Below are positions 32,821-37,371 of a DNA stretch of 64,000 nt, in pieces (positions within the stretch are counted from its first letter, which is position 1; every line of letters begins with the position of its first letter). Origin of the DNA: Thermodesulfobium narugense DSM 14796 (GTDB taxonomy: Bacteria > Thermodesulfobiota > Thermodesulfobiia > Thermodesulfobiales > Thermodesulfobiaceae). Location: assembly GCF_000212395.1 (NCBI RefSeq), contig NC_015499.1, positions 1,834,866 through 1,898,865 of the forward strand, in the 5' to 3' direction. The position numbers were made by a program, and so were the translations under genes. The notes under the pieces are model-generated. The model was not told the DNA's origin and searched no databases. It saw nothing but the letters and a program-made list of their open reading frames with translations.

Positions 32821-33411
32821 TCAAGTAGATTTTGAAGTAAGAGTCTTTTCAACCATATCACAAATTATGTGTCCGATCATAATATGACACTCCTGTATTC
32901 TTGGCACTTTTTTTGATGGGACGCTTATACAAATATCAGATAGTTTTTCCATTTCGTTGCCAGTCATACCTGTAAGTGAAATTGTGCTTATATGATAAAG
33001 TTGAGCAATTCTTAAAGCCTTTATTAAATTCTTAGAATTTCCACTTGTTGAAATTGCAAAAAAGACGTCGCCCATCTCACCCAGTGCCTCAATCTGTCTT
33101 GCAAAAACGCTTTCATATCCAAAATCATTTGAAACAGCAGTAATAATTGAAGTGTCAGTAGTAAGAGCTATAGCTCTTAGTGCTTTTCTTTCCAATAAGA
33201 ATCTTCCAACAAACTCTGCTGCAATATGCTGAGAATCAGCAGCACTACCGCCATTTCCAGCAATCAAAAGTTTTTTCCCAGATCTTAGCGCTGCAGATAT
33301 AACTTTAACGCTCATTTTAACAGTTTCTAAAAATTTATCATCAGAAAGCAGTCTATTTTTTAGCTCCAGCGATTCAGATATTGCTTTTTTAATTTCATCT
33401 TTTACAATCAT
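32821..33411 (-). CDS. gmhA: Phosphoheptose isomerase (sedoheptulose 7-phosphate isomerase)
   Basis: A 196-residue SIS-domain protein with GKKLLIAGNGGSAADSQHIA and FVGRFLLERKALRAIALTTD, both diagnostic for GmhA; VFFAISTSGNSKNLIKAL binds the sugar phosphate. It converts sedoheptulose 7-phosphate into D-glycero-D-manno-heptose 7-phosphate for surface glycans. It overlaps the upstream glycosyltransferase gene by 4 bases, so both are in one unit next to the flagellar operon. Confidence 0.93.
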   Translation of the reverse strand: MIVKDEIKKAISESLELKNRLLSDDKFLETVKMSVKVISAALRSGKKLLIAGNGGSAADSQHIAAEFVGRFLLERKALRAIALTTDTSIITAVSNDFGYESVFARQIEALGEMGDVFFAISTSGNSKNLIKALRIAQLYHISTISLTGMTGNEMEKLSDICISVPSKKVPRIQECHIMIGHIICDMVEKTLTSKST

Positions 33412-35795
33412 TTACTTTCTCTTTCAAAAAAGTTGAGCATCTCTTTGGAAAAGTTTTGGACGGAAAACTTTTCCATCACAAAAGCTCTTGCCCTTTCTCC
33501 AAGTTCTCTAGCAAAATCTCTATCTTTAGCCAATTTAATCATAGCACTATACAACTCATCTTCATCAGGGAGCGCCCATTCCCAATCTGGGTTATATCCT
33601 GAATTATTCTGACCTATTTTTTCAAACTTATAGCTTAAAAGTATGGAATTATCTTTATTCATAAACTCAAGATTCCCACCATACGCTGTAGCTATAACTG
33701 GCTTTCCAAGCCACATAGCCTCTATTAAAGGAAGAGCCATACCTTCACAGCTGTGAGGCGAAACATACGCATCAGCAGCATTTAATATTGTAATGTAACC
33801 ATCTCTATTTGTAGTTTCGTCTACAAACACAACATTGTCAATAATATCCAATTCTTTAATGTATTTTGTAAGTTTTACTTGATTTTCAGAATATTTTGCA
33901 GCCTGAAAAGTCTTAAAAATTAGATATACATCGCTACATTCTCTTACAACTCTCGAGAGAGCCTTCAGAAGCAAAAACGGCCTTTTTCTGTCAAAATCTC
34001 TGAAAAAGTCTAAAATAAACATGAAAACAAATGAATCATAAAAACCAAAGGTTGCTCGAAGATTCTTTCTGTGTTGTAATATTCTCCAATCGTAAGTGAA
34101 TGGATATGGGAATTTATATACTTTTTCTCCTCCAGCTTTTATTAAAGCACCTTTTACAAAATCCGAATAACACATAACTTCATCCACCAAAGAAAAAGCC
34201 CTTGGGTCATCAAAATATTTGTCAAATTCCCAATTCCAGATTGCAGACGTTCTGCCTCTAAAAATATTACTCGATATATCTTTAAGATAAGCCAAATCCT
34301 CTGAGTTAATGAAAAATATTGTGTTATTAAATGACAGATTATTAACATTAAAGCATGCGATATTTTTAATCTCTTCTTCAGAAACTCTCAAATTTGAAGC
34401 AACGGGCAAAAAGAAAAGAGAACATGGAATGCCCAGTGAAGAGGCCTTTCTAAAAAAAGATCTCGCCTGAACTCCAAGTCCAATTTTTGATTCAAAAAAC
34501 CCAACAATATTTATCCCAAAGGAACTATGTTCAATACGAGAAGTATAAGTGAGGTTGTAATTAACCCTTAAGATATCCTTCAATGCTGCCGTGTTTATTG
34601 TGCCCGTACTGGAAAAAGCTAAGTTTAAATCCTGCCTCGACTCGATCACACATCTCGCAAACCTGCTTATAGAACTATATTTTGGGTGTAGAAAGGAAAG
34701 TATTGCTCTTACGTTCTCACTGTCAGGTAAATATGGATTTCTAAATCTCTTAAATATTTCTTCTGAGTACCTCTTTCTTACTTCAAGAGGTACTCTTATT
34801 TTTGTTAATGGGAGGTATTCGAAATAATATGGCAATTCTTCAAACTTTCTTTTGTTCTGGAAAAAGTCTTTATTATAGTATTCATTTATTAACTTTACAT
34901 ATGATTTGTTTATTGATCCAAAAAAGCTCACATGATCGAACAAAAATAGGTCATCTAAATAAAATCCACTAAATTCAAAAAGTGACAATTTCCTAAGTTG
35001 ATTTTTTCTGTTTACAAAATAACTAGATTCTTTAAATACGATATCTTCTTTTTTAACGTTATAAAAAGTCAAAGTATACTGCAAATCGTCTAGCTCAAGA
35101 TATTTAAGCTTTGAAATCTCTTTCTTATGGAAATAGGAAATATTAGCTTCGGTGTTTTTTAAGGCATATATTGATTCTTTGAAACGAATTACGTCATAAT
35201 CGTCCAAAAGATCGTATAAGCCCCTTACGTCAGAAAGGCAAAAAATATTTTTCGATAAGTACAAACTCTTCTTAAAGCCAACATAAGCAAAGTATTCGAA
35301 AACATACGGCAAAATCCAGTTTTTCGCTTCGTCCTTTGTGGATGTCCAAAGAACTTTATGCATATCTCTGCAGGAAATTTCTGACAAAAGCTCACACAAG
35401 AAAAAAAATTTAATGCCTTTAGATACTAACTCATTAAAGAGTCTAAACTCTCTAATATCTTTTAAAAGGTCTACAACTACTACTACAAAATCAATTTCTG
35501 GATTATTTCTTAAAAAGCTATCCCTTAAATTAAGAGCGTAGTGCATCTCGTCTTTGTTAATTATAGTAAACGCAACATCTTTATGTTGAACAGGAATTTT
35601 AGGAGAGTAGTCAAAATTTATCTTAACAACTCTTAGATCTTGCCAGAAATCTTTTGCTTTAAAAATTTCATATTTTATCTTTTCTAAACCTTTACTTAAC
35701 GAAGTTGCAAAACCTTTTTCCTGATAATTTTTTAAAGATTTTCTAAATGAAATATATCTTGAAAGAGAACTTTTAAATAGAGTACCCTTAAACAT
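33408..35795 (-). CDS. Large two-domain glycosyltransferase (GT4-type C-terminus)
   Basis: A 795-residue cytoplasmic protein. The N-terminal 400 residues begin with a GT-A-like segment (KDVAFTIINKDEMHYALNLRD and a run VVVVVDLLKDIREF), resembling GT8-type enzymes without a clear DxD. The C-terminal 380 residues are a GT4-type transferase with SPHSCEGMALPLIEAMWLGK, whose E-x7-E pattern binds the sugar nucleotide, followed by PVIATAYGGNLEF. It is followed by gmhA and by the flagellar genes, so a role in flagellin or envelope glycan is possible but unproven. A pair of selenoprotein candidates lies immediately upstream on the same strand. Confidence 0.82.
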   Translation of the reverse strand: MFKGTLFKSSLSRYISFRKSLKNYQEKGFATSLSKGLEKIKYEIFKAKDFWQDLRVVKINFDYSPKIPVQHKDVAFTIINKDEMHYALNLRDSFLRNNPEIDFVVVVVDLLKDIREFRLFNELVSKGIKFFFLCELLSEISCRDMHKVLWTSTKDEAKNWILPYVFEYFAYVGFKKSLYLSKNIFCLSDVRGLYDLLDDYDVIRFKESIYALKNTEANISYFHKKEISKLKYLELDDLQYTLTFYNVKKEDIVFKESSYFVNRKNQLRKLSLFEFSGFYLDDLFLFDHVSFFGSINKSYVKLINEYYNKDFFQNKRKFEELPYYFEYLPLTKIRVPLEVRKRYSEEIFKRFRNPYLPDSENVRAILSFLHPKYSSISRFARCVIESRQDLNLAFSSTGTINTAALKDILRVNYNLTYTSRIEHSSFGINIVGFFESKIGLGVQARSFFRKASSLGIPCSLFFLPVASNLRVSEEEIKNIACFNVNNLSFNNTIFFINSEDLAYLKDISSNIFRGRTSAIWNWEFDKYFDDPRAFSLVDEVMCYSDFVKGALIKAGGEKVYKFPYPFTYDWRILQHRKNLRATFGFYDSFVFMFILDFFRDFDRKRPFLLLKALSRVVRECSDVYLIFKTFQAAKYSENQVKLTKYIKELDIIDNVVFVDETTNRDGYITILNAADAYVSPHSCEGMALPLIEAMWLGKPVIATAYGGNLEFMNKDNSILLSYKFEKIGQNNSGYNPDWEWALPDEDELYSAMIKLAKDRDFARELGERARAFVMEKFSVQNFSKEMLNFFERESK

Positions 35796-35796
35796 A

Positions 35797-36072
35797 TCAA
35801 GCTACCACTATAAGTTCTTTGAAAAATAAAAATTTTTTCAAACCAATTCTTGTCTTATTCTTAAGGTTCAACTCCTTTGGTATATAAATTTCTATTCCCT
35901 CCTGTTCAAAAACTTTATAGGCTATACCTTCAAGTGGTTCTCCCGCTCTAACTGAGGGAGGCAAAGGAACCCTACTTCAAGAAAAACATGATGAAGCATT
36001 TATAAAAAAAATCTTTGAACCCTTTGATTTTATATATTCTTTAGCTTCTTTATCAAATTCAAATTTAGGCAT
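35797..36072 (-). CDS. Candidate small selenoprotein A with in-frame TGA (CxxU)
   Basis: Reading through one TGA (35977-35979) gives a 91-residue protein from ATG 36070-36072 to TGA 35797-35799. GGAGG lies 5 bases upstream. Codon 32 is the internal TGA in ASSC-FS-[TGA]-SRVPLPPSV, forming a Cys29-x-x-Sec32 pair. The protein continues after it with a coherent sequence: PSVRAGEPLEGIAYKVFEQE, then GIEIYIPKELNLKNKTRIGL, ending FKELIVVA. It aligns with the neighbouring candidate: Cys29 and the TGA codon are at the same residue numbers, followed by PSVRxGxP and a YIPK motif. The overall layout is vaguely HesB/IscA-like; a known bacterial family of CC/Se-motif proteins may be the closest relative. 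Its stop is 1 base from the glycosyltransferase start. Function is unknown; a thiol/selenol redox or metal role is inferred. Confidence 0.75.
35936..35971 (-). promoter_or_regulatory. Candidate bacterial SECIS element of selenoprotein A
   Basis: Five bases after the internal TGA the RNA folds as GGUU / AACC (outer) and CUCCC / GGGAG (inner), with apical sequence UC-AGUUA-GA. The loop AGUUA (35949-35953) is 23 bases after the TGA, within the window used by bacterial SECIS hairpins that recruit SelB. The same loop at the same distance is present in the neighbouring gene. Confidence 0.62.
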
Positions 36073-36367
36073 CTTTACCTCCATCTAAAGCATATATAAA
36101 AATATATTCCTTGCCATAAGAGCTTCTCTTTGCATCGACCACTAGATCTTTGTCGTAAGAAAAATTTTTCGGTATATAAACTACAATATCATTAAAATAC
36201 ATACAAACATACTTATCAAATTCTTTCTTAGGTCTTCCCCATCTAACTGATGGGATTCCTGAACCAGTTCCTCAAGTGCTACACAACAAATCCCTCGATG
36301 GCAAGATATATATTTCTTTGCCGCTACTTTCAATTAGTTTTATTGCCTTTTTAGTTAAAGATATCAT
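36065..36367 (-). CDS. Candidate small selenoprotein B with in-frame TGA (CxxU)
   Basis: Reading through one TGA (36272-36274) gives a 100-residue protein from ATG 36365-36367 to TAA 36065-36067. The internal TGA is codon 32, in LLC-ST-[TGA]-GTGSGIPSV, i.e. Cys29-x-x-Sec32 exactly as in the next gene. Downstream it has PSVRWGRPKKEFDKYVCMYF and NDIVVYIPKNFSYDKDLVVD, with clear sequence kinship to its neighbour. Its last codons overlap the ribosome site and ATG of selenoprotein A (ATGCCTAA), so the two are translationally coupled. The ribosome site is weak: AGGAG lies about 24 bases before the ATG. Function is unknown. Conservation across two paralogues on both sides of TGA argues strongly against a pseudogene. 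Confidence 0.75.
36231..36265 (-). promoter_or_regulatory. Candidate bacterial SECIS element of selenoprotein B
   Basis: After the TGA at 36272-36274 the RNA contains CCCAUC-AGUUA-GAUGGG, a perfect 6-base-pair stem with a 5-base apical loop at 36244-36248, and an outer GGU / ACC pairing across an internal loop. The loop is 23 bases after the TGA, identical in sequence and distance to that of the paralogous gene. Stem bases differ between the two genes while pairing is kept (CAUC/GAUG versus CUC/GAG). Confidence 0.68.
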
Positions 36368-36501: not shown

Positions 36502-37371
36502 ATGTCATTAACCAATTACAAAGAAAAGCTACAAAATGCCGTTGACTTAGTCAACAAAAACGAGCTCGACCAAGGAAGGGAAGTGTTACAAGAATTAATT
36601 GATGAGCTTTATGAAAGTCAAACAAACGAAGAAAAAGACATTCTTGCAACTGCACTGGATATACGAAGTCTTATTAGAGCCTATGGCAGAGATTTTGAAG
36701 GTTCAATGAAAGATCTTGATGAATCGATTTCTCTTAGAAGGTTTCTTTTTAGCGAAAATTTTAGTAAAAATCAGGAAGATATTGCTCGGTTATTAACGCA
36801 CAAGGGAATAAACTTAGGACAGATGGGCAAGCTTGATGAAGCCCTTTCTCAAATCAAAGAAGCAATTAAGTTATATGAAGAATGCTACAAAAATGGCTCT
36901 CTTTCCAATGCCGGACTCTATACTCATGCTCTAAATCAGCTTGCAATTACACAAAAAAATATGAACAATTTTGAATCTTCTTTTGAAGCCTTTAACAAGG
37001 CCATAGATATTTTAGAAAAAGAAACAAAAGTTGACAGTTCTCTTAACTTAGACCTTGCTATAACTTATATGAACAGAGGTATAAACAACGTAGAGGTAGC
37101 AAAAACTCAAGATTCAATTGACGATTTCAGAAAAAGTATCGATATTGTTATAGATTCTTTAAAAGAAAGGCCAGAACTTGTTGGACTTTACTCGAGATTA
37201 GTCTATTATTCCATTCTCTCGATGGCAAGATCAGGCCTTATATTGCCAGATAAGATGGAAAAATTTAAAACAGAATCAGAATACGTGTTTAATACGTATG
37301 GCATGACTGAGGAAGCAGAATTTTGGATGACTAAAATCGGTGAATTATTTGCTCCACCACAAAGTTCCTGA
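36502..37371 (+). CDS. TPR-repeat protein
   Basis: A 289-residue all-helical protein with several degenerate tetratricopeptide repeats, most clearly GINLGQMGKLDEALSQIKEA, NQLAITQKNMNNFESSFEAF and TYMNRGINNVEVAKTQDSID. There is no signal peptide or membrane helix, so it is a cytoplasmic scaffold. GGAGG precedes the ATG and a terminator follows the stop. It is divergent from the selenoprotein pair across 134 bases; the partner is unknown. Confidence 0.85.
   Translation: MSLTNYKEKLQNAVDLVNKNELDQGREVLQELIDELYESQTNEEKDILATALDIRSLIRAYGRDFEGSMKDLDESISLRRFLFSENFSKNQEDIARLLTHKGINLGQMGKLDEALSQIKEAIKLYEECYKNGSLSNAGLYTHALNQLAITQKNMNNFESSFEAFNKAIDILEKETKVDSSLNLDLAITYMNRGINNVEVAKTQDSIDDFRKSIDIVIDSLKERPELVGLYSRLVYYSILSMARSGLILPDKMEKFKTESEYVFNTYGMTEEAEFWMTKIGELFAPPQSS

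Follow-up and report, generated by a model that had tools for sequence, protein, structure and literature searches.

Two small overlapping genes in Thermodesulfobium narugense (genome of 1,898,865 bp, one contig) are predicted, with a probability of about 95%, to be selenoprotein genes in which an in-frame TGA inserts selenocysteine (Sec). All comparative tests applicable to the sequences favour selenocysteine, and the support is strong. The first-pass annotation of the window (the whole stretch of 64,000 nucleotides that was analysed) had proposed selenocysteine and homology of the two genes, and both proposals held, whereas the kind of protein turned out to be already catalogued and the proposed CxxU redox pair to be only partly right.

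The gene pair, its TGA codons and the selenocysteine machinery

Gene A (36065..36367, minus strand) has a frame of 100 codons followed by TAA and predicts a 100-aa selenoprotein, with a single in-frame TGA at codon 32 (36272..36274, minus strand) in the context C29-S-T-U32 (CSTU). Gene B (35797..36072, minus strand) has 91 codons followed by a terminal TGA and predicts a 91-aa selenoprotein, with a single internal TGA, again at codon 32 (35977..35979, minus strand), in C29-F-S-U32 (CFSU). Both codons were assigned from the read-through frames and the orthologues within the genus. On re-reading, the two minus-strand frames and their TGA positions described in the first-pass annotation were recovered, as was the 8-bp overlap of the genes (36065..36072, minus strand), which adjoins the ribosome site GGAGG of gene B. 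This site, GGAGGTAAAG-ATG, is strong and sits inside the 3' end of gene A. The motifs PSVR-x-G-x-P (PSVRWGRP and PSVRAGEP) and YIPK, which had been described as shared, are likewise common to both read-through translations. The pair is flanked just downstream by a glycosyltransferase gene (33408..35795, minus strand), assigned by Pfam PF00534 and synteny, and upstream by a divergent TPR-repeat gene (36502..37371, plus strand).

In the collection used, the phylum is represented by four genomes, all of one genus. In all four, A and B lie in the same order between the TPR gene and the glycosyltransferase gene, and both frames, the overlap and the codon-32 TGA (4/4 in gene A and 4/4 in gene B) are conserved. 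Values of dN/dS after the TGA were 0–0.11 for gene B and 0.15–0.34 for gene A and similar before it, so purifying selection on both genes does not relax past the TGA. Because frames, TGA codons, overlap and flanks are kept in 4/4 genomes and dN/dS after the TGA is low, the two frames go beyond chance. The final stop of gene B is TGA here and TAA in one sister species, and the final TGA is therefore taken as a terminator.

The machinery for selenocysteine is complete in the same genome. A tRNA-Sec (selC) with anticodon TCA was found at 74 bits, selB follows directly after its gene, and selA and selD are present, selD itself carrying a TGA. The selenocysteine assignment thus passed the main test proposed for it in the first-pass annotation, the presence of selA, selB, selC and selD. 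Presence of selB does not discriminate well for Sec members, as it was found in 20/20 genomes with a TGA-containing member of the family described below, in 11/12 with Cys-only members, and in 7/10 with none.

SECIS-like hairpins lie shortly after both TGA codons. That of gene A (36237..36255, minus strand) has a 7-bp stem and an AGUUA loop that begins 23 nt downstream of the TGA, and agrees with the published bacterial SECIS model. That of gene B (35940..35960, minus strand) also carries AGUUA within its loop, roughly 23 nt past the TGA, and, at -6.6 kcal/mol, is too weak for the strict cut-off; gene A of one sister genome falls outside the strict definition as well. Folding energies alone are unremarkable, with MFE z-scores of around 0 for both hairpins. 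Across the family the SECIS signal is strong: hairpins conforming to the model were found in 66/85 Sec members compared with 65/300 control TGAs of matched GC content and with 9/22 Cys members, and a loop start at precisely 23 nt occurs in 44/85 Sec members compared with 5/300 controls. Rfam RF00031 (SECIS) gave no match at the locus and likewise none for the control, and the Rfam scan of the locus returned chance matches only.

Family relationships and conservation of the selenocysteine column

Gene B belongs to the NCBIfam family NF041239, "CC/Se motif family (seleno)protein", scoring 59.6 bits above a cut-off of 40 bits. Gene A stays below this cut-off (32.2 bits, E 8.7e-8) and is therefore regarded as a divergent relative and not as a formal member. 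The family was first predicted in Moorella thermoacetica and shares its Sec/Cys column with gene B; the present locus differs in the strong divergence of gene A and in the arrangement of A and B as an overlapping tandem pair. A review from 2026 (PMC13188914) includes NF041239 among the predicted selenoproteins, with a CxxU motif, and describes it as hypothetical. The family of A and B is thus not a new selenoprotein family.

An alignment-based scan for relatives found no sufficiently conserved stretch to work from, and SelA was used as the route into other phyla. The family is carried by 90/398 genomes of one other phylum, most members having exactly one TGA. In a scan of 282 genomes of another phylum the family was not found, and the controls were also unmatched in the same scan. 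Genes A and B are only about 27% identical and are placed separately in the tree, with A on a very long branch. From these sequence comparisons they appear to be old paralogues, and a recent tandem duplication was rejected on account of the low identity and the lack of grouping in the tree.

At the column of codon 32, the 110 distinct aligned members carry U (85), C (22), A (2) or V (1), so that homologues show Sec or Cys at this residue, a check that the first-pass annotation had put forward. Its argument that the parallel TGAs reflect selenocysteine instead of two independent mutations is borne out by this conserved column together with the selection downstream of the TGA. That both frames do contain a stop codon would fit ordinary genes broken by a TGA, whether pseudogenes or sequencing errors; yet four genomes share the same TGA, many further species have one at the aligned column, and purifying selection continues behind it. 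Cross-species conservation refutes this account in practice, and its probability is negligible. General read-through, or reassignment of TGA to another amino acid, is also highly improbable. No support for it was found, and TGA serves as the ordinary stop of 20/57 long ORFs in the window, which indicates the standard code with TGA unreassigned; the full Sec machinery and Cys as the usual replacement at the column likewise speak against it. Selenocysteine insertion remains the preferred reading of both codons.

Further relatives were seen in the same genome and elsewhere. A Cys form of the family (C1:1155437-1155712, plus strand) has a lone Cys (TC) and the genome's best family score. A third Sec relative (C1:1530165-1530380, minus strand; 114 aa, YCGAU) is distant, reaching only 23 bits to NF041239, and its TGA is kept in two sister genomes. 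In one subfamily, found at loci L137–L141, two in-frame TGAs stand side by side (GUU); some of these loci also hold a gene resembling aldehyde:ferredoxin oxidoreductase. Another locus (L088, G391:C13:26000-35000) contains two family copies with Cys at the Sec position, each with one internal TAA or TAG according to the genome scan; these copies are perhaps decaying.

A predicted A-type carrier fold with selenocysteine at the first conserved cysteine

Sequence, profile and structure comparisons point to an A-type carrier fold (IscA/SufA/HesB), which the family very probably adopts, Sec taking the position of the first conserved cysteine. By far the commonest weak Pfam match of the family was PF01521 (Fe-S_biosyn), found for 25/67 members with a best value of 8.4e-5, and NCBIfam models of IscA/SufA/HesB likewise appeared as weak matches. 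Neither gene A nor gene B matched PF01521 in Pfam, and ten other members scanned singly stayed below its gathering score of 26.3 bits. Alignment of the family with HesB/IscA proteins by hhalign gave 97.2% and placed U32 on the cysteine of GGC, which we take to be Cys35 in IscA numbering; in BLASTP, a family Sec was paired with that of a HesB-like selenoprotein. A search of PDB sequences with the family profile gave no match, and the fold link therefore rests on the Pfam and NCBIfam matches, hhalign and structure comparison.

AlphaFold2 models reached a pLDDT of 88.6 for B and 80.2 for A, with low confidence around the Sec loop. Foldseek returned IscA, SufA and DsrR as top matches for both models (E-values 0.005–0.05), and VIA-align gave Z scores to IscA of 8.4 for the predicted model of B and 9.1 for that of A, the first unrelated chain for A scoring 2.1. 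DsrR of Allochromatium vinosum (2k4z), which shares the IscA fold, had Z scores of 7.9 (B) and 8.3 (A). DsrR is an IscA-like protein of sulfur metabolism that lacks the cluster-binding cysteines and is not a selenoprotein.

Compared with the A-type Fe-S carriers IscA, SufA and ErpA (PF01521), A and B would share the overall fold, with Sec32 aligned to Cys35 of IscA, but have no C-terminal CxC and score below the PF01521 cut-off. From the three ligand cysteines of IscA, only the first position is present in A and B, as Sec. Since the CxC is missing, the family is kept apart from the A-type carriers despite the predicted fold. In the HesB-like selenoprotein (TIGR01911 / NF038090), Sec aligns with the corresponding position of this fold, but its motif is UxGP, it lies nearer to true A-type carriers and some of its members keep the C-terminal cysteines; its models did not match A or B. 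The fold assignment seems to be new, as do the gene pair and the divergent gene A.

Possible functions of the selenol

The explanation that best covers these findings would have ribosomes insert Sec at codon 32 of A and B by means of tRNA-Sec, SelB and the hairpin just after the UGA. A and B would be diverged relatives of the CC/Se motif family, which would take the A-type Fe-S carrier fold but lack its C-terminal CxC, Sec standing in for Cys35 of IscA. Computation supports the genes, the Sec codons, the machinery, the conservation and the fold assignment, and this core, leaving function aside, is likely to be correct. The working part would be a reactive selenol, often with a nearby cysteine as helper, which would perform thiol/selenol redox chemistry or bind a metal or Fe-S cluster and be kept reduced by the thioredoxin system. 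Decoding of the UGA in the cell, the biochemical role and a thioredoxin link in the organism are steps that we infer. A reactive selenol for redox or for metal or cluster handling, coupled to thioredoxin, is the favoured, though tentative, proposal for function.

Neighbouring genes in other genomes bear on such a role, with gene names read from sequence. In one clade a thioredoxin gene of the same orientation adjoins the family gene at a distance of at most about 45 bp (loci L052, L056, L057, L063, L065, L066, L067, L070 and L076). Other members adjoin arsenic-type operons, and at loci L103, L107, L109 and L129 Cys or Sec family genes stand beside ArsR-, ACR3- or ArsC-like genes. A CstA-like carbon starvation gene was also seen immediately upstream of Cys forms (loci L105, L118 and L126). 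No thioredoxin or arsenic genes adjoin A and B in this genome.

The first-pass annotation had likened C29-x-x-U32 to a CxxC redox pair, and A and B might accordingly be classical CxxU thiol-redox proteins with a thioredoxin-type pair, the IscA-like fold being merely a scaffold. This is a possible but doubtful account. The motif is present in both A and B and in 32/85 Sec members, it is given as the family motif in the review (PMC13188914), and thioredoxin genes are neighbours of family genes in other genomes. Against this, other Sec members show UC (24), UxxC (9), CU (3) or a lone U (15/85), the Cys forms of the family are mostly CC, and most members, like the Cys paralogue of this genome, lack C29. 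CxxU is one local pattern among several, and a thioredoxin-style pair therefore does not define the family. The structure matches shown also favour IscA-like over thioredoxin-like proteins: IscA-like chains lead for both models, and no thioredoxin occurred among those matches. CxxU redox selenoproteins such as GrdA share the motif with A and B, but no link in family or fold was found, and CxxU is inconstant in the family of A and B. Somewhat less likely still, A and B would handle a metal, a metalloid or an Fe-S cluster and so replace A-type carriers missing from the organism. The predicted fold with Sec at a ligand cysteine, the arsenic-type neighbours of some members and the lack of any PF01521 match in this genome and in one sister genome are in favour, whereas the lack of the CxC ligands that IscA carries at its C-terminus speaks against it. 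Many Firmicutes and other anaerobes have no A-type carriers (PMC2682760), so the absence of PF01521 here is weak evidence.

A broader and distinctly speculative proposal, unlikely as it stands, would see the family as widespread one-ligand selenoproteins of A-type carrier fold in anaerobes without ordinary carriers. Sec would replace the three-cysteine set for Fe-S clusters, metals or metalloids, aided by thioredoxin, and A and B would be a two-subunit version.

On comparative grounds both hidden genes very probably encode genuine selenoproteins, and the curated model now in use misses one of them. The family, called hypothetical in the literature, gains a predicted fold and ligand position, and function thereby becomes testable as selenium redox chemistry versus the holding of a metal or cluster. 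Overlapping, diverged selenoprotein paralogues kept across a genus are unusual, and this genus stands alone in its phylum within the collection used. The conserved overlapping pair may point to a heteromeric complex of A and B.
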